DNA of 26,634 bases, from the IMG/VR virus record IMGVR_UViG_3300033571_012232, positions 1 through 26,634 of that record, one strand, 5' to 3'. Shown here in pieces: positions 343-26,634 of this stretch. The notes under the pieces are model-generated. The model was not told the DNA's origin, searched no databases, and was given only the letters and a program-made list of their open reading frames with translations. A program made the translations under genes and the position numbers. This stretch comes from a virus. Position 1 is the stretch's first letter. The number at the start of each line of letters is the position of its first letter.

Positions 343-648
343 TTGAAAAACTACATCAACATATCTCATATCTTAATATGTCTTACACTACAAGGAATCG
401 GATATGCTCTTACAAAAGACCCGTTTATAGGAGCTATTGCAGGGGTATTTTTCTTTGTAGGAAGGGAGATTGCTCAAGCCGAGTATAAGAACATTGAAGC
501 ATCTCCAAGTAAGTTGAGAAAAGATATGAGTGTGTTTGGTGGGTTTAATCCGAAATACTGGACGCTTAAAGCATTCTTTGCAGACTTGACGATTCCATCT
601 GTAATTGTTTTAATTATTTCATTCATCTTAAAATATGCCATACGCTAA
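343..648 (+). CDS. Small membrane protein, holin candidate
   Basis: 101 residues starting at TTG; no ATG lies in frame nearby and the frame begins just after the fibre gene. Hydrophobic segments span roughly residues 7-24, 27-40 and 81-98, separated by a charged stretch with GREIAQAEYK and a basic loop. The GREIAQAEY element following a membrane segment recurs in small proteins annotated as holins in podovirus-like phages, and the place directly after the fibre gene fits a lysis gene. No endolysin is adjacent, so the holin role rests on size, topology and that motif. It could instead be a membrane protein of unknown role. Its end overlaps the next gene by 14 nt. Confidence 0.55.
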   Translation: MKNYINISHILICLTLQGIGYALTKDPFIGAIAGVFFFVGREIAQAEYKNIEASPSKLRKDMSVFGGFNPKYWTLKAFFADLTIPSVIVLIISFILKYAIR

Positions 649-1066
649 CGAAAAAGCTAAACTCAAATCAGATTTCATCGACCTTGGAGAAGAACTGAAG
701 CCCGGTGGAATGACGATCTCAATGGGTTCTGAAGAATCTGAAGAATCGCCAAAATATCACTATCCTTCGCTATATTTTGACAATGTAAAAGGCCTTGAAA
801 AGCTCGGAAAGGAAGGCATGGCAATTATCCATTACAAAAAAGTGATGGAACGCACAGAAGATATTACTCGCAATGGCAAAAATGAGAAGCGGCATTCCGT
901 TGAGCTTTGCATCTGCGGCATCAAGCCAGAATGTTGCGAAGAAATGCCAGAAAACGAAATGGAAGAAGAAGAGGACGATGAGGACGCAATCGAAGTAGGC
1001 TTGAAGGCAGCCGAAGGCGAATCCGAAGAAATGGAAGAAGAAGACGAAGAGGAAAACGAAGATTAA
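635..1066 (+). CDS. Acidic phage protein of unknown function (possible minor virion protein)
   Basis: 143 residues. Residues about 42-100 form a compact beta-rich core (YPSLYFDNVKGLEKLG, then MAIIHYKKV and HSVELCICGIKPE). The last 40 residues are almost entirely Glu/Asp. A similar core, a short beta domain around a 'YPSLY...' start, recurs in small proteins encoded among phage head or tail genes, some proposed to decorate capsids. I cannot assign a role from sequence alone. The acidic tail could bind basic partners or aid solubility. It overlaps the preceding membrane protein by 14 nt and ends 4 nt before the next gene, so translational coupling is likely. Long opposite-strand frames here are artefacts of the GAA/GAG-rich tail. 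Confidence 0.75.
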   Translation: MPYANEKAKLKSDFIDLGEELKPGGMTISMGSEESEESPKYHYPSLYFDNVKGLEKLGKEGMAIIHYKKVMERTEDITRNGKNEKRHSVELCICGIKPECCEEMPENEMEEEEDDEDAIEVGLKAAEGESEEMEEEDEEENED

Positions 1067-1409: not shown

Positions 1410-4400
1410 ATGTTTGTTTCTGACATTTACGAAGAATGCGCTGAAATTCTAGGAACGACTGATTCTAAAAAAATCTTTCGCAAAATTCAGCAAGCCGTTC
1501 AGACATTGCTTGAGTCTGGACATTGGACTCATGCCACCGCAGAAGTTGATGTTTGCACGGGATGGGATCGTTGCTCTTTGGCACTTCCTTATGGCATTGA
1601 TGTTCCGCTTGCTGTCAATGTGGATGGCTCTCCAACATATTTCAGAAACAGACTTTTCCAGTATCATGTAAACAAAGGTGGAGTGTATAATTCCGTTGAA
1701 TGGGCGTGGGATGATCGTGGATATACAGCAACGCTCATGGACATAATTAGTCCATCTCAACTTATTGCGGTTGCTGAAAGCAATAACGATGTTGGCAAGA
1801 AACTTCGCGTTCTCGGAATAGACCAAAACAATCGCATTCTCCGTTCGCAAATGCCGAATGGCGCTGGTGTTGATGGAATCCTTGTTCCTATTCACTCACA
1901 GCAAGACTTCCAGTATGGAACGATCGCTCCTGATGATGCAACGATTGCTACACGAAATGTTGCAATTACTCCGATCACCAATTTTACAACAGCAACACCT
2001 CATGGCCTGACTTCTGGCCAAGGAATGTCAACTAAAGTCATCAGTGGAACTATTCCTGTTCCTCTAAATGATGGCCAAACATACTATGTCGGAGTTATTG
2101 ACGCATACACCGTTCAGTTGTTCGGCGATTCATTGAGCGCAGAAGCATTACAGTATCCTATTGCGCTTTCTAGCATCATTGGATTTGGTTCAATGCAACT
2201 TCAAGATAAACGCAATGCAAGCGTTGTAACTTCAATGGAGTTTGCGTCTGCACCATCGTTTGCGATTGATTCTCCAAATGAAGTTGTTTTTCCAAACACT
2301 CCGCTTCCTTCTCCGCTTGAGGTTGATAAAACTTACTTTGCTCAACCTATTGATTCAACGCATTTGAACATTTTCAGTTCGCTTTCTGACGCAAAAAGCA
2401 ACACGAATCCAGTATATACAACTGGATCAATGAATCCGATTGATATTGATATTCGCAAAGCAATTGTTCCAGAAACAAAACTTGTTTTCAGTGTTCGACA
2501 TTACTTCAATGATGGAGACCAAGTTCAGGCATTTACTTCTGGTGGAACATTGCCACAACCTCTTATTGCGAACCAGAATTACTTTGTAAATATTATTGAT
2601 CCATTCTCTGTTTCGCTTCACGAAAACCAAGCTGACGCCCTTGCTTCAAGCCCTACAAACTTCGTAAATCCAATCAAGATTACAACGGCTGGAGCCGGAA
2701 CAAATTCGCTTGTGAAATTGATTCAAGCAACATCTAAAGTTGGAACAGAAAGTCAAATTACAGCTCAAGGACTTTCTATTGGAACTCCTTCTGGCTCTGG
2801 AGCGCAATTTCAAGCAAATATTGTTGGCGTGGTAACATCTACTCGCGTAACTGCTGGTGGAAGCGGATACGGAACAACCGTTCCGAATGTGACATTCTCT
2901 CAACCAACCGATCTTCCTGCTGGAAGCAATCTTCAAACTCGCGTTGCAACTGGATATGCAGTTCTTGTTTCTGGTGCTGTAAATAACATTGTAATCACTG
3001 ATGCTGGACAGGGGTATTCTTCCGCTCCAACAATCACGATTGATCCTCCCCCCGGATTTCCCGGAACTGGATTAGCTCAAGCAACGGCAACAGCAACAAT
3101 TACTACATCATTTGTTTCTGGATTTACAAAGATTTCTGGCGGCTTTAACTATGCTGAAGTGCCGCAAGTAAAAATTAGCGGTGGCGGAGGAACTGGAGCC
3201 ACAGCAACAGCAACGGTCAATAATACAAATCTCTCCGTTTCTTCTATTTCTCGTGTAGGAACAACTGCTACTGCAACAACATCAACTTCGCATGGCTTTA
3301 GTTCAGGTCAGACCGTTGCAATTTCTGGAGCAAACGAAGTTGGATACAACGGAAATGTTGTTATTAGTGTTCCTCAAATAAATACATCTGTTTCGTCTAT
3401 TACTCGCGTTGGAACACTGGCCACGGTGACAACTTCAACGAACCATGACTACAATACTGGTGATCGAGTTACTATTTCTGGAGCTACTGGAACATCTGCT
3501 GGATACAATGCAACTTACAATGTAACCGTTACTGGGCCGACTACATTTACTATAAATGTTCTTTCAACGCTTCCGACTCCTGCCGTTGGAACTATTGTTT
3601 CTTCCATAGCCGACAATACAGCTACTACATTCACATACACTGTCTCTGGATTGCTTCCAACTCCAGCAACTGGAACAATATCTGTATTTTCAGGTGAGGT
3701 AACTGGAATTAATGTTGTTACTTCTGGAACTGGATATACATCCATTCCAACCGTGACGATTACTCCTTCAACTGGCGTATTTGTAAATTTCTCATCTACT
3801 GGCTCATTGCCATCTCCCCTTGTTTCTGGAACATCATATCGCGCAGAAACACCACTTAACGGAATTACTGGAACATTCACGGTTAAGAACTCCGACTTCA
3901 GCGATGTTAATATCACTTCAGCCCCAACTGGAACATTTTATGTAGTTCTTTCTCGCGCATTCGGAGTTGATTTTACAAATAACTGGCTAGGAGACTTTAC
4001 AAGCCTTACAAGCGGTCAACAAATTTATTTTGGAACTGACTATATTCTTCCAACAACATCTCCATCCATAGATAATGGTGTAACTCCATTCTATTTAAGC
4101 GTTGCGTCAAATACATTGGCAAAAGCATATTCAAATATTGGTTTAACTACTGTTATCAATGTAGATTCGTTTGGAACTGGTCAGACATATTACGCAATTC
4201 GCACTCAAGTTACTCCATCGGTTGATGCAAATTTAATTAAACCAACTAATCTTGGATACTTGACGGAAGATGAAGTCGTGCAGTTTAGCACTTCTGGAAC
4301 ATTACCGACTCCGCTTTTAACATCTACTGATTATACGATTAAAATCATCGGAGATGAAGTTCGTGTCTACAACGGATCGACTCCTATCGTTTTGACATCT

Positions 4401-5150
4401 ACTGGAACTGGTCAATTGAGCATGGATATCATTCGTAATGTATCCGTTCAGGCATCTACTAGTATTGCCGCCGAAGCATCGCTTTACGAGACAGGAACAC
4501 AGCTTGTAGCTCGCGCAAATGATGGAGATGTTTTGCCAACAGGATTAGTTGCTGGAACCAATTATTATGTTCGTAGAATCAACAATAATGTTTTTGAGCT
4601 TTACGACACTCTTAATAACGCAAAAAACTTGACATCCACAACTGGACGCAGGAGCTACACGAAAACTGGGAACTCTGTTTCATCTACATTCTTTGTTGAT
4701 GCGATTTATGATCCGACATTCGTAAAATCTGTTGCTCATATCGAAAAACCCCTCACAGATGGATATGTTAGCCTCTACGCGTGGGATTATGGTCGTAGCA
4801 ATGATATGACTTTAATCGGTCAATATCATCCGAATGAAATTAACCCAAGCTATCGCAGAATTCGCATTGGCAAGCCTTGCGCTTGGGCAAGGATCATCTA
4901 CAAGGTAACTTCTCCAAGGATTTCCAGTCTTTACGACTTTGTTCCTCTGGAGCAGGAAAGAGCGATTATTGCTGCTGTTCATGCAGTTGACTTGGAAGAT
5001 AAAGATTTTGCCGATCAAGCTCTGCGTTATTGGCAAATTGCATTTGGATACCTCAAGAATCAGCAAGAATCTATTGACGGACACTCTATGGTTGCACCGC
5101 AAGTCAATGGGATTACCTATGGTGATACCACTGATCCGGTAATGTTTTAA
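1410..5150 (+). CDS. Tail-tube adaptor-like protein (T7 gp11-type) with giant beta-repeat insertion
   Basis: 1246 residues. The N-terminal ~180 residues begin with a helical segment (FVSDIYEECAEIL, KKIFRKIQQAVQTLLESGHW) followed by beta strands. The C-terminal ~150 residues (from about 1093) contain SVAHIEKPLTDGYVSLYAWD, then a helical bundle (LEQERAIIAAVHAVDLEDK, ALRYWQIAFGYLKN). Helices at both ends around a beta barrel match the plan of T7 gp11-like adaptors, which attach the nozzle to the portal and are normally about 200 residues. Here about 900 residues of beta-rich repeats are inserted between the ends. They include six or seven units of the form G-x-L-P-x-P-L...Y-Y-V, two VSSI-x-RVGT-x-AT units and four G-x-GY-x-x-x-P units. 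Such repeats resemble FCCH-like and immunoglobulin-like phage surface domains. The gene is coupled by a 1-nt overlap to the nozzle-like gene. The adaptor role is inferred from the ends and from gene order. Confidence 0.65.
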   Translation: MFVSDIYEECAEILGTTDSKKIFRKIQQAVQTLLESGHWTHATAEVDVCTGWDRCSLALPYGIDVPLAVNVDGSPTYFRNRLFQYHVNKGGVYNSVEWAWDDRGYTATLMDIISPSQLIAVAESNNDVGKKLRVLGIDQNNRILRSQMPNGAGVDGILVPIHSQQDFQYGTIAPDDATIATRNVAITPITNFTTATPHGLTSGQGMSTKVISGTIPVPLNDGQTYYVGVIDAYTVQLFGDSLSAEALQYPIALSSIIGFGSMQLQDKRNASVVTSMEFASAPSFAIDSPNEVVFPNTPLPSPLEVDKTYFAQPIDSTHLNIFSSLSDAKSNTNPVYTTGSMNPIDIDIRKAIVPETKLVFSVRHYFNDGDQVQAFTSGGTLPQPLIANQNYFVNIIDPFSVSLHENQADALASSPTNFVNPIKITTAGAGTNSLVKLIQATSKVGTESQITAQGLSIGTPSGSGAQFQANIVGVVTSTRVTAGGSGYGTTVPNVTFSQPTDLPAGSNLQTRVATGYAVLVSGAVNNIVITDAGQGYSSAPTITIDPPPGFPGTGLAQATATATITTSFVSGFTKISGGFNYAEVPQVKISGGGGTGATATATVNNTNLSVSSISRVGTTATATTSTSHGFSSGQTVAISGANEVGYNGNVVISVPQINTSVSSITRVGTLATVTTSTNHDYNTGDRVTISGATGTSAGYNATYNVTVTGPTTFTINVLSTLPTPAVGTIVSSIADNTATTFTYTVSGLLPTPATGTISVFSGEVTGINVVTSGTGYTSIPTVTITPSTGVFVNFSSTGSLPSPLVSGTSYRAETPLNGITGTFTVKNSDFSDVNITSAPTGTFYVVLSRAFGVDFTNNWLGDFTSLTSGQQIYFGTDYILPTTSPSIDNGVTPFYLSVASNTLAKAYSNIGLTTVINVDSFGTGQTYYAIRTQVTPSVDANLIKPTNLGYLTEDEVVQFSTSGTLPTPLLTSTDYTIKIIGDEVRVYNGSTPIVLTSTGTGQLSMDIIRNVSVQASTSIAAEASLYETGTQLVARANDGDVLPTGLVAGTNYYVRRINNNVFELYDTLNNAKNLTSTTGRRSYTKTGNSVSSTFFVDAIYDPTFVKSVAHIEKPLTDGYVSLYAWDYGRSNDMTLIGQYHPNEINPSYRRIRIGKPCAWARIIYKVTSPRISSLYDFVPLEQERAIIAAVHAVDLEDKDFADQALRYWQIAFGYLKNQQESIDGHSMVAPQVNGITYGDTTDPVMF
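1947..4688 (+). repeat. Degenerate beta-repeat array inside the tail-tube adaptor gene
   Basis: Three interleaved repeat types are visible in the translation. The first is LP-x-PL...Y units, starting near 2043, 2295, 2545, 3800, 4300 and 4525, with a weaker one near 4040. The second is VSSI-[S/T]-RVGT-x-AT-x-TTST-x-H units near 3235 and 3388. The third is G-x-GY-x-x-x-P units near 2858, 3004, 3139 and 3727. At DNA level, words such as TCTGGAACATT recur, but the units are too diverged to be a simple tandem repeat. They probably form strings of small beta domains projecting from the tail. Confidence 0.7.
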
Positions 5151-7903: not shown

Positions 7904-8761
7904 ATGGGCGGGTCAAAAACAGTTGATGCAAGGCAATATTTGAGTAAACCAGATTCTTCGCGTGATTTGGCAATTCAAATGGCAATGATGCAAGCCCAAG
8001 CACAGCAACAGGAAAATCAAGCCAAATTGCTTGATGCTTATGCAAAAATGGCTCCAGCACAGCAAGAGTATGATGCTCTCAAGGAGTCAAAAAGACTTTC
8101 TGAACTTGGAATGGCGAATGTTCAGCGTTCTAGGGAATTGGAAAAAATGGTTTCTCCTGAAGCGGCGCAAATGCGACAAGCTCAAGGAGCTGAATTAGCT
8201 AGACTTGCAAGCATTGATAACGCAACTCGCTACATGAATGAATGGGCGCGGAATCAAGGTCTTATTCAAGGCTACGAGACAGGACTTGGTGATTCAACGA
8301 TTGGTCAGGCCGCAATGTATGATGCAGCATTAAAGGCTAAAGCAAATTACGATCAACAAAATCTTGCACTACAGCAAGAAACTCTTCGTCAAATGCAAGC
8401 TCCTGTTGGTGGAATTGATCCGACATCTTCCATTTCAGCGCAAGAAGCTAATAAAGCCGCTAATTTGCAGGCAATGCAAAACTGGCAAAATGCCATGTAT
8501 GGCAACATTGGTGGATACAACCAATCCGTTGCCGATCAAATGGCGCAATCTGGAGCAAATTTCCAAAACTTGTATCAAAACGCAATGCAAAACAAATTGA
8601 ATTACCAAGGTGCATTGCTTGGACAACAAGCTCAAAACCAAGCTGCACGAAATGCAATGACTGGTGCATATATTCAAGGCGCTGGAAGTATTGTTCAAGG
8701 TGCGGCTCAAGGTGCGGGATCGGCTTTTGCAAATAAAACTTGGGGCAGTGGCGGAGATTAA
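7904..8761 (+). CDS. Q/A-rich internal virion protein candidate (paralog A1)
   Basis: 285 residues starting MGGSK. It is almost wholly helical and rich in Gln, Ala, Asn and Met, with a glycine/alanine-rich C-terminal segment (about residues 255-280, IQGAGSIVQGAAQGAGSAF) that could insert in membranes. It aligns along its length with the next gene product. Shared blocks include QAKLLDAYAKMAP / QANLLKAYSSQAP, LGMANVQRSRELEKMVSPE / FGMDNLQRSKEFDRLLNPE, YMNEWARNQGLI / WMNNWAVKKGLM, and APVGGIDPTSSISAQEA / APIGGLDPASIIAAEQA. Composition and position match internal or ejection proteins of short-tailed phages, which leave the head with the DNA. That role is inferred. Confidence 0.75.
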   Translation: MGGSKTVDARQYLSKPDSSRDLAIQMAMMQAQAQQQENQAKLLDAYAKMAPAQQEYDALKESKRLSELGMANVQRSRELEKMVSPEAAQMRQAQGAELARLASIDNATRYMNEWARNQGLIQGYETGLGDSTIGQAAMYDAALKAKANYDQQNLALQQETLRQMQAPVGGIDPTSSISAQEANKAANLQAMQNWQNAMYGNIGGYNQSVADQMAQSGANFQNLYQNAMQNKLNYQGALLGQQAQNQAARNAMTGAYIQGAGSIVQGAAQGAGSAFANKTWGSGGD

Positions 8762-8764
8762 TTT

Positions 8765-9556
8765 ATGGCATACCCAAAACCAGATTCAACAGCAGCACTC
8801 CAAGGATTAATGATTCAGTCGCAAGGGCAACTTGCGATGTTGCAAAATCAAGCGAACCTTCTTAAAGCCTATTCATCTCAAGCTCCGTTGATGCAGTCGT
8901 TTGATGCAGCTAAAACCTCACAGCAGGCGGCAGAGTTTGGAATGGACAACTTGCAACGCTCGAAAGAGTTTGATCGGTTGTTGAATCCAGAAATTGCCAA
9001 GATGCGTGATGAGCTTGGCTCGAAGGTTGCGGAAGCCACCAATCTTGATGCTTCCAAGCAATGGATGAATAATTGGGCGGTTAAAAAAGGATTGATGAAC
9101 CAATCTGGATTGGGAACTGATAGCCTTATTGGTCGATCCGCTATTTACGACGAAGCAACTGAAGCTGGGAGACAAGCAAGGTTGCAGAATCTAGCAATTC
9201 AGCAAGGATATCTCGCTCAAACTCCCGCTCCAATCGGCGGACTTGATCCCGCATCAATTATTGCAGCAGAACAAGCCGCAAAAAATCAAAATTTGGCGGC
9301 AATGCAACAATATCAAGGGAATGTAATGCAGGGAGCGCAACAATTAAATCAATCAACAACTGATTGGATTAATTCAAATCTTGGACAGCTACAAAAAATA
9401 AATCAAAATCAGCAGCAAAGCCAGCAAAATTACGAGCAGATGTTGCTTCAAAATGCTCAACAAAATGCAGCCAGCTCCAATGCTCAAAAAGGTCAAATGA
9501 TACAAACTGGAGGCGCTGTTGCGGGTGCTGTCTTGGGAGCGGCTATCATTATTTAA
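8765..9556 (+). CDS. Q/A-rich internal virion protein candidate (paralog A2)
   Basis: 263 residues, beginning 3 nt after its paralog. It has the same helical, Gln/Asn-rich composition and the same ordered blocks (LLKAYSSQAP, FGMDNLQRSKEF, WMNNWAVKKGL, APIGGLDPASII). It differs in its start (MAYPKPDS instead of MGGSK) and in its end, which is a short hydrophobic tail (GGAVAGAVLGAAIII) resembling a C-terminal membrane anchor. The two probably arose by tandem duplication and may form a hetero-oligomer in the ejected complex. Its stop shares a base with the ATG of the PAPS-reductase-like gene (TAATG), so the two are probably translated together. Confidence 0.75.
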   Translation: MAYPKPDSTAALQGLMIQSQGQLAMLQNQANLLKAYSSQAPLMQSFDAAKTSQQAAEFGMDNLQRSKEFDRLLNPEIAKMRDELGSKVAEATNLDASKQWMNNWAVKKGLMNQSGLGTDSLIGRSAIYDEATEAGRQARLQNLAIQQGYLAQTPAPIGGLDPASIIAAEQAAKNQNLAAMQQYQGNVMQGAQQLNQSTTDWINSNLGQLQKINQNQQQSQQNYEQMLLQNAQQNAASSNAQKGQMIQTGGAVAGAVLGAAIII

Positions 9557-10392
9557 TGAAAGAAAAAATAGATAAAACAATAGATAAAATCAAAGAATGG
9601 AACAAAAGATGGCCTAGAGCAGTGGTTTTGTGGAGCGGAGGAAAAGACTCCACGGCATTGCTTCATCTTATTAAGTTCGGAGCGGGAATTGATCTTCCTG
9701 TCATTCAATACCGAGAACCAAAGTTGCGTGAGCGATATGCTTACTCTGACAAGTTAATCAAAGACTGGAAACTTGAAGTCTATGACTATGCGCCTAGTAA
9801 AATAGCTATTGCTGACGGGCCAGATGTTGAAACTGGAGAGCTTCGCTTTGATTTTATTAAATACATGCAATGGGGGCAAGGAACAGCAGTTTGTTTGTCT
9901 CTAGGAACCGAAAGGCCAAAAGAAGGAGAAGATTTTCTTTGTGCTGTCACTGATGTTTTACAACGCCCAACAGGAACATTTAATTGGCCATGGGGAGCAG
10001 TGTATATTGGAACAAAATATAGCGATACAGACCTAATAAAAGGCCATGTTCCGCTTGCTGTTGATATTCGATATGCAGAGAACTCGCCAATGTCTCTTTA
10101 TCCGTTGCGAGATTGGAATGATGATGATGTATTCAAATATCTTGAGGATAATAATGTCGCTCCAGACCCGACTAGGTATATTAAAGGAATCAACAAGTGG
10201 ACAAACAATCCAGACAAGTCTCTAAATGCAGACTTTTATCCGATTTGCTTTAATTGTGTAAATCGACATGAAGGAAAATATGTTGATTGTCCTAAACTGA
10301 AAGCAAAAGTATCCAATATCTCTCATCTCGCCCCATATGAGGATTTAGTTAATGACGATTTAGGATTTCGTCCTATTACATGGAACAAATAA
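9556..10392 (+). CDS. PAPS-reductase-family PP-loop protein
   Basis: 278 residues. The ATP-pyrophosphatase P-loop SGGKDST lies at residues 27-33 after a strand (AVVLW). A later segment (LYPLRDWNDDDVFKYLEDNNV) is the typical 'PL.dW...DVw.yi' element of phosphoadenosine phosphosulfate reductases and related CysH/CysD/DndC proteins. Near the C-terminus Cys231, Cys234 and Cys245 (CFNCVNRHEG...DC) could hold a metal or Fe-S centre, and the classical ECG.H catalytic tail of CysH is absent. The family either reduces activated sulfate or activates substrates by adenylation, so sulfur assimilation, thiolation or nucleic-acid modification are all possible and cannot be separated here. It is placed within the structural block and overlaps the next gene by 13 nt. 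Confidence 0.85.
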   Translation: MKEKIDKTIDKIKEWNKRWPRAVVLWSGGKDSTALLHLIKFGAGIDLPVIQYREPKLRERYAYSDKLIKDWKLEVYDYAPSKIAIADGPDVETGELRFDFIKYMQWGQGTAVCLSLGTERPKEGEDFLCAVTDVLQRPTGTFNWPWGAVYIGTKYSDTDLIKGHVPLAVDIRYAENSPMSLYPLRDWNDDDVFKYLEDNNVAPDPTRYIKGINKWTNNPDKSLNADFYPICFNCVNRHEGKYVDCPKLKAKVSNISHLAPYEDLVNDDLGFRPITWNK

Positions 10393-10701: not shown

Positions 10702-11187
10702 ATGGGTGGACGACGATCAAAACCTAAACAAGAATCCCAACAGCAACAGCAATCTTCTGGCCCTGATCCAATGATTGCATTTATGGCTATGCAACAGCAA
10801 CAGCAAGCCGCACAAGCTCAAGCAGCCGCTGAAGCTCAAAGGAAAGCTCAAGAAGAAGCTCAACGACAAGCTGGAATGCAAGCCATGCAACAAGGTGAAG
10901 CTACCGCACGCCAAGCATTGAGTGGAATGAATGTTGGTCAGCAAGCGCAAGACCAAGCTACTATGGCAGCGCAACAAAAAGCATCTGCTGGAATGGGTTC
11001 TGGAGCGACTGCTGGAGGATACAATGTTGGCGCAACTGCTCAACCAAGCGTTTCAGCCGCCCCTGTTCAACCCGGCATTGGAGCCGCTGCCGCCATGGCC
11101 GCAAATCAAGGTGTTGGCGGAACCCAACAAAGGTTAAATCAATTTAATACACCGTCCATTTCTGGACTAACATTCGGAGGAGCATAA
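10702..11187 (+). CDS. Q/A-rich low-complexity protein (paralog B1)
   Basis: 161 residues. It starts MGGRRSKPKQE, followed by poly-Gln (residues 12-17), GPDPMIAFMAMQQQQQ, and a long Ala/Gln helix to about residue 75. A Gly/Ala segment with GGYNVGATAQP and a Pro/Ala linker lead to a C-terminus reading FNTPSISGLTFGGA. The next gene product shares both ends and the GPDPM core. It is probably an internal or assembly protein of the virion. No known domain is seen. A 25-nt A/T-rich gap without Shine-Dalgarno precedes it, and the gene ends one base before its paralog. Confidence 0.7.
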   Translation: MGGRRSKPKQESQQQQQSSGPDPMIAFMAMQQQQQAAQAQAAAEAQRKAQEEAQRQAGMQAMQQGEATARQALSGMNVGQQAQDQATMAAQQKASAGMGSGATAGGYNVGATAQPSVSAAPVQPGIGAAAAMAANQGVGGTQQRLNQFNTPSISGLTFGGA

Positions 11188-11188
11188 T

Positions 11189-11704
11189 ATGGGAGGAGGA
11201 AGAGGAGGAGGTTCCAAACCAAAACCAAAAGCAGAAGGGCCAGACCCGATGCTTGGATTCTTGGCTCAAATGCAAGCACAGCAAGCCGCTCAAGCTGCTG
11301 CCGCTCAAAAGGCACAAGAAGAGGCGCTAAAGCAGTCGCAAATGACCGCTGGGACTCAACGCCAACAACAATCAGAGCAAGCCGCTAGGCAGGAACTAGC
11401 GACAATGGGTTCCATGCAATCAATTCGTGATGCAAACGCACTTCTTGCCGCACAACAAGCACAGGCTACCGCTGGTCAAATGGCAACTGGTGGAGGATAC
11501 GATGTGAATAAAGCTCGTGAAGAAGCTCTTTCCAATCTTGGTGCAGCGCAAGGAATGTTGCCTTCTACACCTTCTAATCTTCCATCTACCGCAGTTAATC
11601 CCGCTCTTGCTGGACTAGTAAATCAAGGTGCGGCATCTACCTCAAAGAAAGCTAATATTTTCTCACTTCCTTCATCTAGTGATCTGAAATTTGGAGGAGC
11701 TTAA
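11189..11704 (+). CDS. Q/A-rich low-complexity protein (paralog B2)
   Basis: 171 residues with the same plan as its upstream neighbour: MGGGRGGGSKPKPK opening, GPDPMLGFLAQMQAQQA, an Ala/Gln helix, GGGYDVNKAREEAL, a Pro/Ser linker, and a C-terminus FSLPSSSDLKFGGA. Matching the neighbour's PS-x-S-x-L-x-FGGA end despite poor identity in the linker suggests that the end is a functional tag. Start choice is supported by the MGG match and by a GGAGGAG run upstream, though that run also encodes the FGGA end of the previous gene. A virion role is inferred from context. Confidence 0.7.
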   Translation: MGGGRGGGSKPKPKAEGPDPMLGFLAQMQAQQAAQAAAAQKAQEEALKQSQMTAGTQRQQQSEQAARQELATMGSMQSIRDANALLAAQQAQATAGQMATGGGYDVNKAREEALSNLGAAQGMLPSTPSNLPSTAVNPALAGLVNQGAASTSKKANIFSLPSSSDLKFGGA

Positions 11705-18889: not shown

Positions 18890-19042
18890 ATGGAAACTCA
18901 AAAAGAATGGAATCATGGAGCAGGAAAAGGTGATAAGCCTCGTCCTGTAGACAAAAAGAAGTATTCAGAGAACTTTGATGAGATTGACTGGTCTGCTCAC
19001 AAGAAAAGCAAGGCTACCGCTTGCAAAGAACAAACTCAATAA
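18890..19042 (+). CDS. Tiny conserved phage protein (GKGDKPRPVDxxKYxxNFDxIDW)
   Basis: 50 residues. The core (HGAGKGDKPRPVDKKKYSEN, then FDEIDW) matches a signature very common in short phage proteins, of unknown function. The ATG overlaps nothing but directly follows the previous stop. The last 29 nt overlap the 3' end of the methyltransferase gene on the opposite strand, making this the convergence point of the two transcription units. No terminator hairpin is visible there. Confidence 0.8.
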   Translation: METQKEWNHGAGKGDKPRPVDKKKYSENFDEIDWSAHKKSKATACKEQTQ

Positions 19043-19583
19043 AGGCTTCAACGCCATCTTCAAATCGGAATGTTTGATCTTTGCTTGTTCCGATTTTGTA
19101 GTTGTAGTTTGAGTCAATAAGATCGCAGTAAATAATATCGCAATTAAACTTGTCTAACCACTCTGGTAGTTTTACATGATTTGGCGCTGGTGATCCGTCT
19201 TGCCAAAGTGAGAATGTTGATTTGTGGTCTGGATTGAATCGACTAGGCCAAATCATGCCTTCGTAAAGCTCCCACGATGGCACAGAAATGACCGCAAATC
19301 CCTTTGGCTTTAGAACCTTTAGCCATGAGTCCAAAGCGGCTTTAGGGTCTCTCATATGCTCCAAGCATTGCGAGGCATGGATGTAGTCAAAAGTATTTTC
19401 CAAAAAGTAATGATCTAGGTGATTAGCGTCACCATCTTCCATGTCAAATCCAATGACTCCATCAACCTTGATTAGATCATCACCTGCTCCAATGTCGATT
19501 CCTTCGCCTTGGAATATCTTTTTGAATAATGTTTGCTTCTCTGAAGAAAACCTACGATTCATTGCTTTGCTTGATTCTTTCAT
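19014..19583 (-). CDS. Class I SAM-dependent methyltransferase
   Basis: 189 residues. The nucleotide-binding loop is GIDIGAG at 28-34 and the acidic second motif is at about 45-49 (GFDME). Motif IV-like HASQCLEHMRDP lies at 69-80 and is followed by WLKVLKPKGFAVISVPSWE, the standard layout of small methyltransferases such as the Methyltransf_11 group. The substrate is unknown. Its place as last gene of a glycosyltransferase operon suggests it methylates a sugar or a glycosylated product. Its ATG overlaps the stop of the small upstream gene (ATGA). Its 3' end overlaps the opposite-strand gene by 29 nt. Confidence 0.85.
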   Translation of the reverse strand: MKESSKAMNRRFSSEKQTLFKKIFQGEGIDIGAGDDLIKVDGVIGFDMEDGDANHLDHYFLENTFDYIHASQCLEHMRDPKAALDSWLKVLKPKGFAVISVPSWELYEGMIWPSRFNPDHKSTFSLWQDGSPAPNHVKLPEWLDKFNCDIIYCDLIDSNYNYKIGTSKDQTFRFEDGVEAFIEFVLCKR

Positions 19584-20478: not shown

Positions 20479-21053
20479 GCCAATTCTTGCATGATTTCTG
20501 ATTTTTTCTTATCGGACTTCCTAGCATGATGAACCTTGTCAATGATGCCAGAAAGATTCGTTTGAGGATTCAGAATATCACATTCAAATCGTAGTTTTGA
20601 TTCGCAGATCAAATCCTCATTGATGAATTTCTGAATAGCCGCTGCACAATGCTCTTTTGTTGCGTAAAACAAGTAAGCTGGCTCTCCAGAAACAACACTC
20701 AATGTCGATTCATGCGAGTCAGAATCATTGCATGAAAATCCAAGATTCATTACATCGTAATCGCTCATCCAGCCTCCTCCAGCGGCATGAAGCGCACACC
20801 AACGAGAATAACGAGCCGCAATCAACGGAAAGTATGGCTGCATATCTTGTGGCAACGCGAACGAGAACTTCATTAGCTTTCCCATCAGTTTTTGATGCAA
20901 ATTGCTAGATTGAGCGTGCGATCTATTTAGCATCACGCATTCCCAACCATTCTTTTCCCATGATGTCTTCCACCAATTAGCGCAAGCAAATTCTTCGGTT
21001 TGAGGAAGGATTTGAATGCTTTCGTAGTAAGCGTATATCTTCTTTTTCATCAA
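20475..21053 (-). CDS. DXD-containing glycosyltransferase (GT32-like)
   Basis: 192 residues. The region AARYSRWCALHAAGGGWMSD and the DYD triplet at 98-100 match the conserved 'd..R...L...GG.y.D.D' signature of the Gly_transf_sug (GT32-like) group. There the Asp residues bind a metal and sugar nucleotide. An aromatic/basic N-terminal lobe (KKKIYAYYESIQILPQ) precedes it. The donor and acceptor are unknown. It overlaps both neighbours by 4 nt (ATGA), consistent with a translationally coupled operon. Confidence 0.75.
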   Translation of the reverse strand: MMKKKIYAYYESIQILPQTEEFACANWWKTSWEKNGWECVMLNRSHAQSSNLHQKLMGKLMKFSFALPQDMQPYFPLIAARYSRWCALHAAGGGWMSDYDVMNLGFSCNDSDSHESTLSVVSGEPAYLFYATKEHCAAAIQKFINEDLICESKLRFECDILNPQTNLSGIIDKVHHARKSDKKKSEIMQELA

Positions 21054-22063
21054 TATGTTTTGAATCCGACATGGAATACAGGAATTCCAAGATCGACATG
21101 AGGTTGATGCCCTGCTTTCTTGGCTCGCATACAGAACGATACATCTTCACCAGTTTGCGAGTTAATCGGATGGAAGAAATCAAACGCCGCATTCGGATCA
21201 TTCGGATTTACTGGTGCGAGGTCTGGATTCTGCTCCATAATGTCATTAAATACATTTCGATGGACAAGCATACATCCAGTTGCAACCCAATCGACAGGAG
21301 CAATGACATCGGCATATTCCCTAGCTTTTTGCGCTAGAGAACGATCAGAACACATGATTGGCGCACCTTCTTGGCGACCAAAATACGCTCCGCCAATGAG
21401 TGTTTTGCCACTACCAATCAAGCGATGAATGACATGGCGCTGGAGAGGCAAATCTGGCAAATTACGAGCCGCATGGACGGTTGCTTTCATCCAAGCGGGG
21501 CGACCAATGCAAGGAATAATGTCATCATCAAGCATCAATAGCCATTTCGCGTCAGTTTCAAGGAACTTCTTCGCAAGCGTATTGCGAGAATGATAAATCA
21601 TCGCATCTCCGATTGACATATCAAAGCGAATCTTATCCCGACCAAAATCAAGTGCCATTGCAATCATCGCAAATGCCGTGACGGGATTCGTGGTCTTATA
21701 GCACGGGAATCCAACCATAATGTCACGACCAGCGAATTCGCAACGATAACTTGGCAATCCTTCACTATTTCGGGACTCTACAATTGGTTGCTCTATTGTT
21801 AATGTTTTGTGTGGTGTTTCGACGGAAATATCACTACTTTTTTCCGTCATAACTGGAGGTTCAATTTCAATCTTTGGTTCAGCTTTTGGCTTTCGTCCGG
21901 GTTTATTTTTCACAGGTTCGTCGTATTTCGAGAAATCTCGATTCGATTTTGGTATATTTGGTTGATTGACTGGCTTAACAACTTGACCCGGCCTAGCGAA
22001 CGGATCGAAGTTCTCAAGCGCATTCATGGTGATTTTTTCGTCTGGAGATACTTTTGTTTGCAT
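21050..22063 (-). CDS. GT2-like glycosyltransferase with disordered N-terminal extension
   Basis: 337 residues. Residues 1-105 are polar and probably disordered. They contain NALENFDPFARPGQVVKP and a basic GRKPK (56-60) that resembles an AT-hook core. From about 110 the catalytic domain begins (DIMVGFPCYKT). It shows WLLMLDDDIIP with the DXD-type acidic cluster at 179-181, DWVATGCMLVHRNVF at 258-272, and GEDVSFCMRAKKAG at 305-318 followed by a final His331. These are hallmarks of GT-A family 2-like transferases acting on a sugar nucleotide. A start at M13 would remove part of the extension. It opens a five-gene operon, about 41 nt after the tRNA. Confidence 0.8.
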   Translation of the reverse strand: MQTKVSPDEKITMNALENFDPFARPGQVVKPVNQPNIPKSNRDFSKYDEPVKNKPGRKPKAEPKIEIEPPVMTEKSSDISVETPHKTLTIEQPIVESRNSEGLPSYRCEFAGRDIMVGFPCYKTTNPVTAFAMIAMALDFGRDKIRFDMSIGDAMIYHSRNTLAKKFLETDAKWLLMLDDDIIPCIGRPAWMKATVHAARNLPDLPLQRHVIHRLIGSGKTLIGGAYFGRQEGAPIMCSDRSLAQKAREYADVIAPVDWVATGCMLVHRNVFNDIMEQNPDLAPVNPNDPNAAFDFFHPINSQTGEDVSFCMRAKKAGHQPHVDLGIPVFHVGFKTY

Positions 22064-22183: not shown

Positions 22184-23455
22184 TCAACCAAGAGCTTCGT
22201 CTAGTCCAAGATCAATGGCATCTCCAGAACTCATTTTAATTCGATCTGAAAGATTCGATGGCTTGTTAGATGCTGGAGTCTTAACAGTCTGTTTAGGTAG
22301 CTTGGAGCTTCCTTTGAGCTTGTTATTCTCATCAGTCAATCGCTTCACTTGCTCAAGCAGTGCGTTCTTTTGCGTTTGTTCTGTTCGCAATTGATCTGTC
22401 AGCACATGGCTAAAAACAGCGGCAGCGGCAACATTGGCTCGCTCTTGCGCAGTCGTTGGCCACAAAGCAGAGTTAAACTTGGTAGCAAGGTCTCCAACTC
22501 GCTTATTATGCGACTCAATTTGCTGAATCTGCTCTGGAGTAGCATCTGGTTTCGGTTCTACGAATCGCGCCCAAGGCAATTCTTTCGTGATTTCATCCAT
22601 GTAGGAGTCGATTTGCTCAACTTCTTTGGAATACCACTCTTTATTTGCCGTTTCACGCTGTTGCATGATTTCTTCAGCGTGTTCAGCGGCATGAGCAACT
22701 TCCGCTTGTTGCTTCTCATTGAGGTCAGAAACATCAACTAGGTTGCGTTTGAGCTTTTCAGCGTCAGTCAGAGGAAGATTATTAAAAGCAGGTTGCTTCC
22801 AAAAGGAATCAGCAATCTTGTCTGGGCCTCCAGCCTTCTCAATGCTTTCGATTACTTCATCTCCAGCACCATGCTTTTTCAGAATTCCATATATACTTTC
22901 TTTTGCGCTTCGGATTGGCGCTTCGTATTTACTTTTGAACTCTGGGTCGTTTTTGATGTCGAAGATTGCGCGGAACTTTTTGAGTTCTTCGTAGTCCTGC
23001 GGGATTTCTTTCCTTTGCTCTGTTTCGGCGAGTCGCTGACGCAGAACTTCTGCTTCGGCGGCTTGTTGCTTGTATTGGCTGGCAGTCTCTTGTAGTTTTC
23101 GCCAATTGCTTTGGTTTTTTTCCGAGAGATTGCGAGGTTGCTCAATGGCTGCGATTTCTGGATCAATTTCGACTTGCGGCTTTGCTTCGGCTTGAACTGA
23201 CTCAACTTGGGTTGTGGGTTCAGCGGAAGGTTCAGGGACAGGAGCAGCAGGTTCTTCCAAAACCGCTTCTGGTTCGCTAACCACTTCTTCAGTTTTGGTT
23301 TCAGTTGTCGGTTCAACCTCTCCAAGTGCTTCATCAAGGAGACTGTCGATTGCTTGGTCTGTAGTGTCATCAATTGGATCATTGTTTAGGCTAGGGTTTC
23401 CGAATCCCGTAACATCGGGTTCGACTGTATTTTCTGTATTGTTTTCTTCTGTCAT
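22184..23455 (-). CDS. Scaffold-like protein
   Basis: 423 residues. The first 110 residues are strongly acidic and Pro/Thr-rich (disordered). A long coiled coil runs from about 115 to 165, followed by a helical middle and another coiled coil near 360-390 (KNALLEQVKRLTDENNKLK). The end is a basic linker plus MSSGDAIDLGLDEALG. This plan matches phage scaffolding proteins: disordered acidic start, long helices and a short C-terminal coat-binding helix. It is encoded downstream of the portal-like gene, as usual. A near-copy of the terminal motif (QAIDSLLDEALG) is at residues 34-45. No protease motif is seen. No capsid gene follows; a tRNA and transferases do. Confidence 0.6.
   Translation of the reverse strand: MTEENNTENTVEPDVTGFGNPSLNNDPIDDTTDQAIDSLLDEALGEVEPTTETKTEEVVSEPEAVLEEPAAPVPEPSAEPTTQVESVQAEAKPQVEIDPEIAAIEQPRNLSEKNQSNWRKLQETASQYKQQAAEAEVLRQRLAETEQRKEIPQDYEELKKFRAIFDIKNDPEFKSKYEAPIRSAKESIYGILKKHGAGDEVIESIEKAGGPDKIADSFWKQPAFNNLPLTDAEKLKRNLVDVSDLNEKQQAEVAHAAEHAEEIMQQRETANKEWYSKEVEQIDSYMDEITKELPWARFVEPKPDATPEQIQQIESHNKRVGDLATKFNSALWPTTAQERANVAAAAVFSHVLTDQLRTEQTQKNALLEQVKRLTDENNKLKGSSKLPKQTVKTPASNKPSNLSDRIKMSSGDAIDLGLDEALG
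22187..22234 (-). repeat. Shared C-terminal tag in the scaffold-like protein
   Basis: The last 16 residues (408-423) read MSSGDAIDLGLDEALG. The first 11 residues fit the pattern MSSx[D/N]AIxxGL seen at the C-termini of two other minus-strand proteins, ending at 24170 and 25013. It is probably a binding helix, for example for the coat protein. Confidence 0.6.
23321..23356 (-). repeat. Internal copy of AIDxxLDEALG near scaffold N-terminus
   Basis: Residues 34-45 read QAIDSLLDEALG, matching 9 of 12 positions of the C-terminal DAIDLGLDEALG. The codons of the two copies differ widely at third positions, which points to an old copy kept for its peptide sequence rather than a fresh DNA duplication. 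Confidence 0.6.
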
Positions 23456-23474
23456 AGATTTATTGATTGTTTTA

Positions 23475-23726
23475 CTATTTCATTGATTTAGCGCCACGGC
23501 AACGCCATTTTTTACGAGAAAGGCTGTTTGGACTATTTTTATCTTTTTTCCAATCACCTTTAATTTTCAAAGAGCGAGCGCAATATGCGTCACCTTTTTT
23601 AGTTCCCGGACGAATTCGATCTTTGCCATCAGCAGCTTTTCCAGCTTGACCATACTTAACCGTCCTAGTGCGGCCAGTCGCTTTATTAACGACAATTTTA
23701 GTGAATCGTTTTTTTATTTCAGCCAT
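23475..23726 (-). CDS. Small basic Cys-containing phage protein (YCARS...SRKKWKC type)
   Basis: 83 residues, pI clearly high. The N-terminus has TKIVVNKATGRTRTVKYGQAG. The conserved portion reads RPGTKKGDAYCARSLKIKGD, then NSLSRKKWRCRGAKSMK. The 'KGD.YCARS' and 'LSRkkWkCrG' blocks recur in small phage proteins of unknown role. Basic charge and paired Cys hint at nucleic-acid or metal binding. The start overlaps the stop of the preceding gene by one base (TAATG), and the scaffold gene follows 19 nt later. Confidence 0.75.
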   Translation of the reverse strand: MAEIKKRFTKIVVNKATGRTRTVKYGQAGKAADGKDRIRPGTKKGDAYCARSLKIKGDWKKDKNSPNSLSRKKWRCRGAKSMK

Positions 23727-23884
23727 TACTTTTTCTTAACGGTTTTAGCCGATTGTTTCAATGCTTTTGCAGTAGGAGCGCCTTTTGATCCGGGCTTCCT
23801 CATCTTCTCGCCGCTACCAGCAGCAATGCGTTCCCGTTTAGCGTGGATATTAGCCCACAATCCTTGTTGTTTAGTTCTTGCCAT
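23726..23884 (-). CDS. Tiny basic phage protein (LWANIHAKRERIAAGSGEKMRKPGSKGAPT)
   Basis: 52 residues, read directly from the sequence. QQGLWANIHAKRERIAAGSG and KMRKPGSKGAPTAKA form a signature very common in tiny phage proteins of unknown function. The C-terminus is Lys-rich. The ATG follows an AATT leader and its stop shares a base with the next ATG (TAATG), so it is co-translated. Confidence 0.8.
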   Translation of the reverse strand: MARTKQQGLWANIHAKRERIAAGSGEKMRKPGSKGAPTAKALKQSAKTVKKK

Positions 23885-23886
23885 AA

Positions 23887-24126
23887 TTACATTGTTGTAA
23901 AGTTTCCAGAAGAAGCGTCAGTGTCTTCATCATTTTTTGAAGATAAGTCAATCAATTCTTTAATTGCGTATTCAAAACCTTCTTTGAATTTTGCTTGCAA
24001 TGCTACTTGTTCTATGCTCTTGCCGTTGCAAAGAGGAATGCGTGATCGGTAGTATTCAATCAGTTTATTGTTTGACTTAATAAGATATTCTCGAAGAGCA
24101 ACGCTATCGGATTCTTTCCACTTCAT
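23887..24126 (-). CDS. Small helical protein, unknown
   Basis: 79 residues. Helices include SVALREYLIKSNNKLIEYYRSRIP and IEQVALQAKFKEGFEYAIKEL, with an acidic Ser/Asp/Thr-rich tail ending GNFTTM. No family is recognised. The ATG is preceded by AAATT; the stop lies 2 nt from the next ATG. It sits between the tagged proteins and the scaffold cluster. Confidence 0.65.
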   Translation of the reverse strand: MKWKESDSVALREYLIKSNNKLIEYYRSRIPLCNGKSIEQVALQAKFKEGFEYAIKELIDLSSKNDEDTDASSGNFTTM

Positions 24127-24166
24127 AATTTGTTATAGATTTGTTTATTATTGTAAAGCGCCTCGA

Positions 24167-25006
24167 CTACTTCAGTCCGGCTTCAATAGCATCATACGAT
24201 GACATTGGCTTTTTTGTTAATGAATCCAATTTTTGTTGAATTTTTTTAGATTCATTTATTTGTTCTTCAGTTATATTTCCAGCAGATAAATCACCAGTAA
24301 GTATTCTTGCAATAATTGTATGTTTTAATGGTGTTTTATCTTTTATTTTTCCATATTCAGTTTCAGAAAATGCGGTTTCTTGTTCAGGCGTTAAATTGAA
24401 TGCAGGGGATATTTTATTTTCCTTTAGATATTGTCTAATAGCTTCGTTTTTTGCCACCAATTTTTGTTGCTCTGGAGTATTTTTGCTATATGGATTTAAT
24501 GTTATCGCATTATCTTCTGTTGCCATTCCTGCGACTTCCGGCCTTTTTTTGAAAAACTCTTCTTCGCTTTTGTATGGTTTTCTTACTGGATAACCATATA
24601 TTGATTCATCTTGATTTTTTGGAACAGAAAAATATCTATCACCAAACTTTTTAACTTCAAATCCTCGTTCAGCTTCTCCTTTAATCAAGTCATCGTGACT
24701 TGGATGACTTGCACCTTTTAGAACGATATAAGACTCACCAGAAGGAAGTCCATGCTCTTTGTATTTTTGGTAAATGTCTTCATTAACTTGAGTAACTGAA
24801 CCCATGTGTCCAAAATTCTTCCCCGGACTCAAATCTGGCAACATACCAGATTCTTCAGCAGTCTTGTAATCGTATTCACTGCTATCGGCATTAAATGGTT
24901 GCTTCAAAACTTTCTCCCTGTCTTTTTGGACTTCTGGAGAATATTGCGAGCCATTTGTGCTTGCAATTGAGTTTTGATACCTTGCCTGATAATTTGCTCC
25001 GCCCAT
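24167..25006 (-). CDS. Virion-associated protein candidate with MGG start and shared C-terminal tag
   Basis: 279 residues. It starts MGGANYQARYQN, then has a polar region with YSPEVQKDREKVLKQPF. A central stretch reads FGHMGSVTQVNEDIYQKYKE, SYIVLKGASHPSHDDLIKGE and RGFEVKKFGDRYFSVPKN, which looks like a small mixed alpha/beta domain. A charged helical end finishes KKPMSSYDAIEAGLK. Both the MGG start and the tag at the end match the neighbouring 201-aa protein, and the tag also matches the scaffold. The function is unknown; virion or assembly role inferred from place and tag. The ATG follows ATAAATT, 3 nt after the neighbour's stop. Confidence 0.7.
   Translation of the reverse strand: MGGANYQARYQNSIASTNGSQYSPEVQKDREKVLKQPFNADSSEYDYKTAEESGMLPDLSPGKNFGHMGSVTQVNEDIYQKYKEHGLPSGESYIVLKGASHPSHDDLIKGEAERGFEVKKFGDRYFSVPKNQDESIYGYPVRKPYKSEEEFFKKRPEVAGMATEDNAITLNPYSKNTPEQQKLVAKNEAIRQYLKENKISPAFNLTPEQETAFSETEYGKIKDKTPLKHTIIARILTGDLSAGNITEEQINESKKIQQKLDSLTKKPMSSYDAIEAGLK
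24170..24208 (-). repeat. Shared C-terminal tag PMSSYDAIEAGLK
   Basis: This is the last 13 codons of the 279-aa protein. The 18-base core AAGCCAATGTCATCGTAT is identical to the corresponding DNA at the end of the neighbouring gene (near 25034-25051). This indicates recent duplication or gene conversion of the tag segment. Confidence 0.65.
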
Positions 25007-25009
25007 AAT

Positions 25010-25615
25010 TTATAGCCCCGAATTTATTGCATTATACGATGACATTGGCTTTTGTTTTATTGATTCATTTTCTTGAGCAAAAAAAGGCAATCCCTTTGCT
25101 TCTCTTTCTTTTGCAAATCTAACTGCTTTTTGTTCGATTTTTTTACCTAATTCTGGATTTTCTGTAAAAATTTTATCTTCTGGAGTGGAAAGCAAGTATT
25201 TAATTTCATTGCTATCAAGTGTTGGAACCATTGTGGGAATAAGTTTTTCTCCGCTTCCCCAATCTACTCCAATAGATATTTCGCTTGATACTCCACTTGG
25301 ATCATCAAGTCTTTTCATTCCACCAAGAAATCCACTTCCCTTTTTTGTTCCGTCTGGACGAATGGAATTAGGATTAGATTTTAATTCAGTATTTACATCC
25401 CTTCCATAAAAATTCGCAATGCCATCTTTCGCGTTTTTTCCAGCATCAAGCAGCTTTCCTAGTTCAATTCCGCTATCTTCAACTGTTGGATTGTCAAATT
25501 TAGCATATGCCTTTTCTGTTTCATTAGACATTCCCTCGCTTTTCTCATCTTTTGTTACTTGATTTTGATATTTGCGATATGTCTTCATCGCTTCAGTTGT
25601 ATTTGATCCGCCCAT
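25010..25615 (-). CDS. Conserved phage protein with MGG start and shared C-terminal tag
   Basis: 201 residues using the ATG 4 nt after the portal stop, chosen because it gives the MGGSNTTEAMKTYRKYQNQ start that parallels the neighbour. A longer frame would extend 33 residues into the portal gene. The C-terminal half has GFLGGMKRLDDPSGVSSEIS, then IGVDWGSGEKLIPTMVPTLD, then EIKYLLSTPEDKI and an Ala/Lys helix. The combination 'GflG.lkr.dg..sTEiSigv...iPt.VPtL...Ei.yll...' is a recurrent, unassigned phage module often near portal and tail genes. It ends KQKPMSSYNAINSGL, like the next protein and the scaffold. Probably a virion protein. Confidence 0.8.
   Translation of the reverse strand: MGGSNTTEAMKTYRKYQNQVTKDEKSEGMSNETEKAYAKFDNPTVEDSGIELGKLLDAGKNAKDGIANFYGRDVNTELKSNPNSIRPDGTKKGSGFLGGMKRLDDPSGVSSEISIGVDWGSGEKLIPTMVPTLDSNEIKYLLSTPEDKIFTENPELGKKIEQKAVRFAKEREAKGLPFFAQENESIKQKPMSSYNAINSGL
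25013..25048 (-). repeat. Shared C-terminal tag PMSSYNAINSGL
   Basis: This is the last 12 codons of the 201-aa protein, matching 8 of the 12 aligned residues of the neighbour's PMSSYDAIEAGL and the scaffold's MSSGDAIDLGL pattern. The identical 18-base DNA core at the start of the tag suggests recent exchange between the two genes. Confidence 0.65.
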
Positions 25616-25619
25616 AATT

Positions 25620-26634
25620 TTATCCAGCAGTAGGAGGCTTTGGAGGGTTTGCAATATTTGCAATCGTTCCTGACATTGTTGGAGCTTGAGACTCTGAAAT
25701 TGCGCCAACTTCACGGGATTGTGCTACAACTGGCGCACGGCCTCCGCGACCACCAGAAGGCATTCCAGCACCAGCAGCAGGAGTAAGCTCTGGAGGAGGA
25801 GGCGTTCCATGTCCGGCAGTAAGATGTGCGAATGCTTGCTTTGCTGCCTGCTCATATTGCGCCGTATTAGAACCTTTAGCTTTCGCTTGCTGGACATGCC
25901 CCATGAAGTGCTGAAGCGCCTTCATAAATGGTTGAACCATCTCTGGAGGCAATGCGCCAGCTGGAGCCTGTTCAATCAATGGCATGAGCTTTTGAGAAAT
26001 AACATCAAGATGAACAATGTCATTGTCACGAGGAGAAACAGGAACCTCTTGTCCTGCGATAATGGATTGCAGTTCGATAATCTGCTGACGGGTTGCCTCA
26101 ATAGCAATTGTTTCAACTTGGTCTTTTGGCAGAATAACCGCATTAGCAATTTCTTCACCCATCTTACGGCTCCAATCGAGCTTTAGAAGCTCATCTTGGT
26201 TGACATTTGGGTTGCCAGTATAACGCTGAATCATCATATCCAGCATTGCGTTGTCTTGAGCTTGGGTATCTGCCAGCAACTCTTCGGCTGGACTAAACGC
26301 CATGAGAAGAATGTCAGAAGGAGGAAGGTTGCGCTCCAGCATATTCAAGCAACAATTAATGGCATCCTCATCCAAGTGTTCTGGAATCTCAAAAGGAACA
26401 AGGAATGACGGCAAATCCATCACAGAGCGATCAAAAGCATCAACAACATCACGCCTAGCCCAAACTGCGTTCGGAACCATTTGGCGAGCGATGTCAAGAC
26501 GAGTTTTAAGCTCACTAGCAGCTTTTACATGTTCTGGATGGCAGATGCCACGCTGCATACGCTCAACAGCTTTGGAATACTGCTTTGTCCAGCGCATAAG
26601 GATACCTTGGCGCAACTGATTTTCAATAGCCGCA
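25620..26634 (-). CDS. Portal-like protein, C-terminal part (partial)
   Basis: The frame is open to the right edge, so the N-terminus is missing; the visible 337 residues are the C-terminal part. A helical region (KAVERMQRGICHPEHVKAAS) leads to a middle segment with FLVPFEIPEHLDEDAINCCL and LERNLPPSDILLMAFSPAEE. Next come long helices with LLADTQAQDNAMLDMMIQRY and VETIAIEATRQQIIELQSII. It then shows VSPRDNDIVHLDVISQKL, which resembles the 'p.Dnd..Hl' stretch near the end of podovirus portal (head-tail connector) proteins. A low-complexity tail rich in Pro, Gly and Ala ends NPPKPPTAG. The next gene begins 4 nt later. Portal identity is inferred from the helical C-terminus, the DND..H motif and the following scaffold-like gene. 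Confidence 0.5.
   Translation of the reverse strand, partial: AAIENQLRQGILMRWTKQYSKAVERMQRGICHPEHVKAASELKTRLDIARQMVPNAVWARRDVVDAFDRSVMDLPSFLVPFEIPEHLDEDAINCCLNMLERNLPPSDILLMAFSPAEELLADTQAQDNAMLDMMIQRYTGNPNVNQDELLKLDWSRKMGEEIANAVILPKDQVETIAIEATRQQIIELQSIIAGQEVPVSPRDNDIVHLDVISQKLMPLIEQAPAGALPPEMVQPFMKALQHFMGHVQQAKAKGSNTAQYEQAAKQAFAHLTAGHGTPPPPELTPAAGAGMPSGGRGGRAPVVAQSREVGAISESQAPTMSGTIANIANPPKPPTAG

Follow-up and report, generated by a model that had tools for sequence, protein, structure and literature searches.

Short terminal peptides that bring proteins into a capsid or shell have been described in several systems. In phage T4, diverse internal proteins have nothing in common but a short terminal peptide that serves capsid entry (PMC3012670), and in P1 the thirty N-terminal residues of DarB are reported to suffice to take a reporter into the head (PMC9024508). 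In P22 the coat is bound by the scaffold C-terminus, described as a basic helix-turn-helix region, and foreign cargo is taken into the head when it is fused to part of the scaffold (PMC9962691). A hook at the scaffold C-terminus has been described, and the herpes coat binds the 25 C-terminal residues of the UL26 and UL26.5 proteins (PMC12005531), and encapsulin cargo carries a short C-terminal peptide that binds through hydrophobic residues set apart by glycine and has basic residues close to its end (PMC7925596). Here we analysed the IMG/VR virus record IMGVR_UViG_3300033571_012232, a stretch of 26,634 bases with 35 called genes (hereafter the window), in which one short tag, [DE]AI[DE]xGL, is common to a predicted head scaffold protein, to swappable accessory proteins encoded beside it and to a small acidic protein. 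Terminal peptides for head loading are already known; the sharing of one tag by these three kinds of protein is new here, and in the portions of the literature searched we found no published report of this motif or of a scaffolding-protein short linear motif in a phage procapsid.

The tag resembles the T4 capsid targeting sequence in that a short peptide sits on unrelated bodies, but the T4 and P1 signals are N-terminal whereas this tag is C-terminal, lying 1-9 residues from the end in 17 of 17 stretches matched. Unlike the T4 signal, it is also the scaffold's own end and occurs in a third protein, all of which is known here from sequence alone, including the spread over 12 of 25 clusters of accessory bodies. 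As in P22 and herpes, the extreme C-terminus of the scaffold is conserved, but here its motif is reused by genes with unrelated bodies, unlike in P22. The encapsulin peptide differs as well, as the core here is AIxxGL with no GSL or LGI, the end is basic in many proteins but not in all, a scaffold is present, and shell binding is putative. The tag is therefore set apart from the T4 sequence by its end, from the P22 domain by not being basic and from the encapsulin peptide by its core.

Carriers of the tag

The predicted scaffold (22184..23455, minus strand, 423 aa), acidic with a pI of 4.62, ends in ...IKMSSGDAIDLGLDEALG and gave no Pfam or PHROGs family match at E <= 0.001. Its putative role follows from gene order, as relatives have this gene between those of the portal and the coat. 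The C-terminal motif DAIDLGLDEA (residues 412-421; 22193..22222, minus) is closely preceded by a conserved R and K. When relatives were sought by the body, using a query that lacked the C-terminal end (80 of 177 relatives), DAI[DE]xGL was retained at the C-terminus of 78 of the 79 complete scaffolds; the 79th reads DAIDLGI and the 80th is cut by the contig end. The initial annotation had named absence from related scaffolds as a ground for giving up its proposal, and no such absence was seen in this set. In 72 aligned scaffolds the D, A, I, D, G, D, E and A of the motif are each conserved at 1.00 and L at 0.99, and the bodies in a 15-sequence set are 43-66% identical to that of the window. A second, motif-like copy, DQAIDSLLDEA, lies near the N-terminus (residues 33-43; 23327..23359, minus), and a permissive pattern recovers it in 71 of 74 distinct scaffolds.

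Two accessory proteins encoded on the same strand carry the tag at their ends. Accessory protein 1, composed of modules D+A, is listed as an open reading frame of 234 aa (25010-25714, minus), has its probable start at the ATG at 25615 (MGGSN...) and ends in ...KQKPMSSYNAINSGL, the tag itself reading PMSSYNAINSGL (25013..25048, minus). Accessory protein 2 (24167-25006, minus, 279 aa, modules B+C) ends in ...KKPMSSYDAIEAGLK, with the tag PMSSYDAIEAGLK at 24170..24208 (minus). Neither protein had a family match at E <= 0.1. Both start with MGG[SA]N and end in the tag, and by sequence they resemble copies of a single gene frame whose interiors differ. The initial annotation had already read the tag on these three minus-strand C-termini, placing their ends at 25013, 24170 and 22187; each of these is the last codon before the stop and the sharing is not due to chance. 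Its identical stretch between the two accessory genes is real and lies before the core, although it spans 20 bases and not 18, and the two extra proteins it set beside the scaffold do have different interiors, but with a common start and tag they are not wholly independent. It had counted three carriers, missing the acidic protein and the N-terminal copy in the scaffold.

The accessory locus, bordered by the portal and by a conserved 79-aa gene downstream (23887..24126, minus), is a mosaic in which modules A, B, C and D and short repeats occur in many combinations. Besides D+A and B+C of the window, tagged combinations include A+D (G004), B+D (G007), A+C (G015) and B (G011). At 60% identity the accessory bodies fall into 25 clusters, some of which share modules, and 12 of these have a member bearing the tag or a weak form. 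[IV]xxGL occurs in the last 24 residues of 31 of 64 distinct MGG-start accessory proteins (one of the 64 being a 17-aa fragment), against 16 of 665 other proteins encoded by eight large contigs; the Fisher value of 3.5e-25 counts related proteins as independent. HEVGHH or HEVGHN is present in tagged bodies of L129 (4323-5318), L135 (5014-5967), L171 (2708-3646) and L174 (5376-6317), and we take HEVGH to be a zinc-peptidase motif; no good Pfam match was found for the proteins of L135 and L174. MGG stands at or near the start of five of the 35 window genes, namely the two tagged ones and, on the plus strand, 7904-8761, 10702-11187 and 11189-11704, whose products may be structural. The last two encode neighbouring similar proteins with a second shared ending (GLTFGGA / DLKFGGA), probably a duplicate pair, and like endings were seen in G003 and G022.

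The small acidic protein (635..1066, plus strand, 143 aa, pI 4.31) is encoded two genes upstream of a long gene (1410-5150) that we take for a head-tail connector. It carries DAIEVGLKAA (983..1012, plus) in the tail context EDAIEVGLKAA, shows no BLAST similarity to the scaffold and has no family match at E <= 0.001. With the tail removed from the query, the motif was found in 80 of 80 relatives (80 of 163), strictly in 41 and more loosely, for example as EAIDSGL or DEIENGL, in the other 39; its columns are invariant in the set chosen by motif. The set may lean towards motif carriers, as 12 of its 13 seed sequences came from a motif scan. In 18 contigs searched regardless of the motif, six encoded the acidic protein, five of them with the strict motif and G006 with DEIENGL. 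The structural model predicts a beta hairpin (residues 62-99) and a flexible, low-confidence tail in which residues 118-127 may form a short helix, also at low confidence; comparison of the model with the PDB gave nothing at E <= 0.001.

Specificity of the tag and its conservation by selection

The loose motif [DN][AS]Ixx[GS][LIMF] occurs in four of the 35 window genes, and these are the scaffold, the two accessory proteins and the acidic protein. The same scan missed the coat gene of G008, which was hidden by gene calling. When the 8512 peptide windows were ranked with a profile of the scaffold C-terminus, the N-terminal scaffold copy came second, the tag of accessory protein 2 third and the acidic protein fourth. 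The tag of accessory protein 1 (YNAINSGL) was outside the top eight and came sixth with a profile of the acidic protein, which was built from only eight peptides. We searched IMG/VR with PxSSYDAI[DE]xGL and obtained 17 stretches, all 17 lying 1-9 residues from the C-terminus of MGG-start accessory proteins of this group. The tag thus recurs at the C-termini of relatives, where the initial annotation had proposed to look for it. A DAI[DE]xGLxxA-like scan of IMG/VR DNA gave at least 119 stretches; the 80 listed were examined, and among these matches the 78 in-frame rows comprised 60 scaffolds, 16 acidic proteins and two rows of apparently one unrelated protein. Scaffolds and acidic proteins are expected here because the pattern was made from these families, and it is the small number of others that counts.

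In the eight large contigs, the top eight windows of the scaffold profile included the acidic protein in all eight, a tagged accessory protein in four and the N-terminal scaffold copy in seven, G021 showing another N-terminal stretch instead; the scaffold ranks first in all eight by construction, as the profile, here and in the ranking within the window, contains the scaffolds of the same contigs. In shuffled proteomes the best score had a median of 9.9-11.2 and reached at most 13.0-17.3, against 18.1 for the tags of G003 and G007 and 11.5-19.6 for the acidic matches. The matches of the acidic protein are thus convincing by their recurrence across contigs and not singly. Chance was rejected as the source of the shared tag by the pattern scans and by the count of 31/64 against 16/665.

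The A, I, G and L of the core are written with differing codons across the four window genes, and over 20 distinct tags the codon varies at every conserved residue. In nine module-D proteins the tag holds 85 synonymous against 16 non-synonymous differences, whereas the 20 codons before it hold 105 against 206, these and the following counts being pairwise differences and not events. All 20 distinct tags, which are more divergent, gave 851 against 546, the scaffolds 11923 against 4816 and the acidic proteins 8160 against 6428. The residues of the tag are therefore maintained by selection, and in view of their varied codons recent DNA copying was rejected as the main source of the sharing. Pure paralogy was rejected as well, since the motif is common to the scaffold and the acidic protein although their bodies are dissimilar.

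A proposed docking role and its alternatives

In this group of uncultured phages the shared peptide suggests a docking tag common to these proteins, by which they would be loaded into the head as it grows. On balance we lean towards reading [DE]AI[DE]xGL as a docking helix reused by the scaffold, accessory and acidic proteins, which would bring the accessory proteins into the procapsid; we infer the coat as partner, the packaging and the order of events, the docking role itself being proposed by analogy with the known terminal peptides. The scaffold would hold its partner during procapsid assembly through the extreme C-terminal motif together with the related N-terminal copy, and this partner would most likely be the inner face of an HK97-fold coat. 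The swappable locus between portal and scaffold, where the motif-carrying accessory genes lie, would supply small proteins with different bodies and the same end peptide, and since their bodies end in this peptide we propose that they enter the procapsid alongside the scaffold. Through its flexible tail the acidic protein would occupy this site too, perhaps once the scaffold leaves. In its fullest form, which we consider less likely than not, one peptide code would be read at one capsid site in turn by the scaffold, by swappable cargo (one a predicted zinc peptidase) and, after scaffold exit, by the acidic protein. The cargo or targeting code advanced in the initial annotation gains from the C-terminal recurrence, the sharing with the scaffold, the purifying selection and the exchangeable bodies, with coat binding and presence in the virion still its putative parts.

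Several observations weigh against this docking role. Individually, the acidic matches of G022, G023 and G024 (11.5) and some tags (9.6 and 14.4) are not significant given the shuffled maxima, and an 87-aa protein has a start (MDDIPSILDTA, 11.8) that scores above the acidic protein in both G022 and G024. Part of the resemblance between the two accessory proteins of the window is plain homology, since both of their ends are shared. Both portal and scaffold are present at 75 of 80 scaffold loci, and only 22 of these 75 hold [DEN][AVE][IV][DEN]x[GE][LIM] within the last 24 residues of a protein, other accessory proteins there ending in weaker forms such as KPLSSEQAIDIGLA. Accessory bodies without the tag were found in G009, G013, G014 and G017, which is the first half of what the initial annotation had set against its own proposal, namely homologs that lack the tag and still enter the virion. 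Within the scaffold, residues 97-126 are conserved more than the C-terminus (15-residue windows), and the far more distant G010, G017 and G018 have genes in the scaffold position without the motif. The likeness to P22 and phi29 drawn in the initial annotation may not hold in detail, as the coat-binding residues of P22 are basic whereas the motif here is acidic and hydrophobic.

The main rival to docking on the coat is that the tag docks on the scaffold, either motif to motif or on its body, the accessory proteins riding in with the scaffold core. The presence of two motif copies in the scaffold, N- and C-terminal, would suit this, as would the T4 targeting sequence, for which entry into the scaffolding core has been described; we nevertheless consider it unlikely, as the best conserved copy is the scaffold C-terminus, which is the coat-binding end in the accounts of P22 and herpes (PMC12005531), and as the gene of the acidic protein sits away from the scaffold. 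Recruitment of a shared partner outside the capsid, for example a chaperone of the host or an assembly factor of the phage, appears improbable with the motif carriers placed among head and tail genes. The mosaic locus with its shared 5' and 3' ends, and the 20 identical bases at the window tags, could also be taken as functionless relics of gene duplication and recombination joints, but the conserved residues are written in several codons, in the nine proteins selection is seen in the tag but not in the linker next to it, and the scaffold and acidic protein carry the motif on dissimilar bodies, all of which makes relics very improbable.

The T4 prohead protease cuts at L-x-E before A or G, and the scaffold copies (LLDE-A and GLDE-A), many acidic proteins (GLxEA) and one of 17 tags (GLTEA in L171) contain such a sequence. 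That the motif is a cleavage site of this kind is nonetheless the least probable of the explanations considered, as xEA after GL is missing in 16 of the 17 tags, a cut at the scaffold C-terminus would take off only a few residues and the conserved AI[DE] lies outside such sites. The T4 internal protein IPI is proteolysed to its mature form. Here Peptidase_S78 gave matches in 0 of 10 records and Peptidase_S77 in 0 of 8, the latter a weak negative with no control above the cut-off, and other proteases are possible.

If the sequential reading of one docking peptide is true, nature would have its own form of P22-style cargo loading, in which phages trade payloads behind a constant tail. If the tag loads heads, a virion payload could be predicted from any open reading frame that ends in it, and head-borne phage proteins could be found by a sequence rule in metagenomes without isolates. 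Engineered capsids could also be loaded by means of this compact C-terminal tag, and one peptide would lead to its binding site.

Relatives of the window and neighbouring genes

Many related contigs, some of 60-71 kb, were recovered through protein searches, and the three tagged or tag-bearing proteins of the window have 100% identical counterparts in contig IMGVR_UViG_3300032296_000916. The gene order of G003 starts with a terminase-like gene and continues with a 194-aa gene, the portal, an accessory gene, small genes, the scaffold, glycosyltransferase-like genes, a 397-aa protein and fibre-like genes. The head genes of the window lie on the minus strand and face plus-strand tail genes, while in G003 both run in one direction. 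The predicted portal of the window (25620..26633, minus) is a C-terminal part cut by the window end, named from gene order and without a family match, and is 85% identical over 340 columns to an 805-aa protein of G003. A tblastn search of 50,697 phage records, from which records very near the window were possibly left out, gave no match to the portal, coat, scaffold, accessory protein 2 or acidic protein, and the names portal, scaffold and coat therefore rest on the gene order of relatives, on distant similarity among these and on the coat fold.

Within the limits applied, neither Pfam nor PHROGs matched the tagged proteins or the coat, and PDB sequence searches with the coat and scaffold profiles gave none at E <= 0.01. 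No coat match was present in the window or in G001, and the coat profile found no relative in genome_contigs and no host. The 397-aa predicted coat of a relative gave a low-confidence model (mean pLDDT 42.5) with no Foldseek match at E <= 0.001 in the PDB or viral library. In VIA-align all 50 listed rows were phage or herpesvirus capsids, heads, head vertices or encapsulins, the best with Z 8.8, rmsd 6.7 and 196 aligned residues, a Z level that the tool rates as middling. We read this uniformly capsid-like list as support for a predicted HK97-fold coat.

Two genes of G003, the terminase-like one (49732-52575, L037) and a CHAP gene (3499-4953, L035), encode proteins about 300 aa longer than those of several relatives; the two proteins are weakly similar (E 3e-6) and a weak LAGLIDADG match was obtained for the CHAP protein (E 0.006), which suggests intein-like insertions. 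The 71-kb contig G019 (L353-L356) carries two different scaffold genes, reflecting either two joined genomes or a real duplication. The window further encodes a PAPS-reductase-like gene (9556-10392), a methyltransferase (19014-19583) and a gene whose glycosyltransferase match is no more than weak (21050-22063, E 0.062). The product of 11707-13284 matches phrog_2534 weakly (E 0.00086), a family described as leaving the phage upon host infection.

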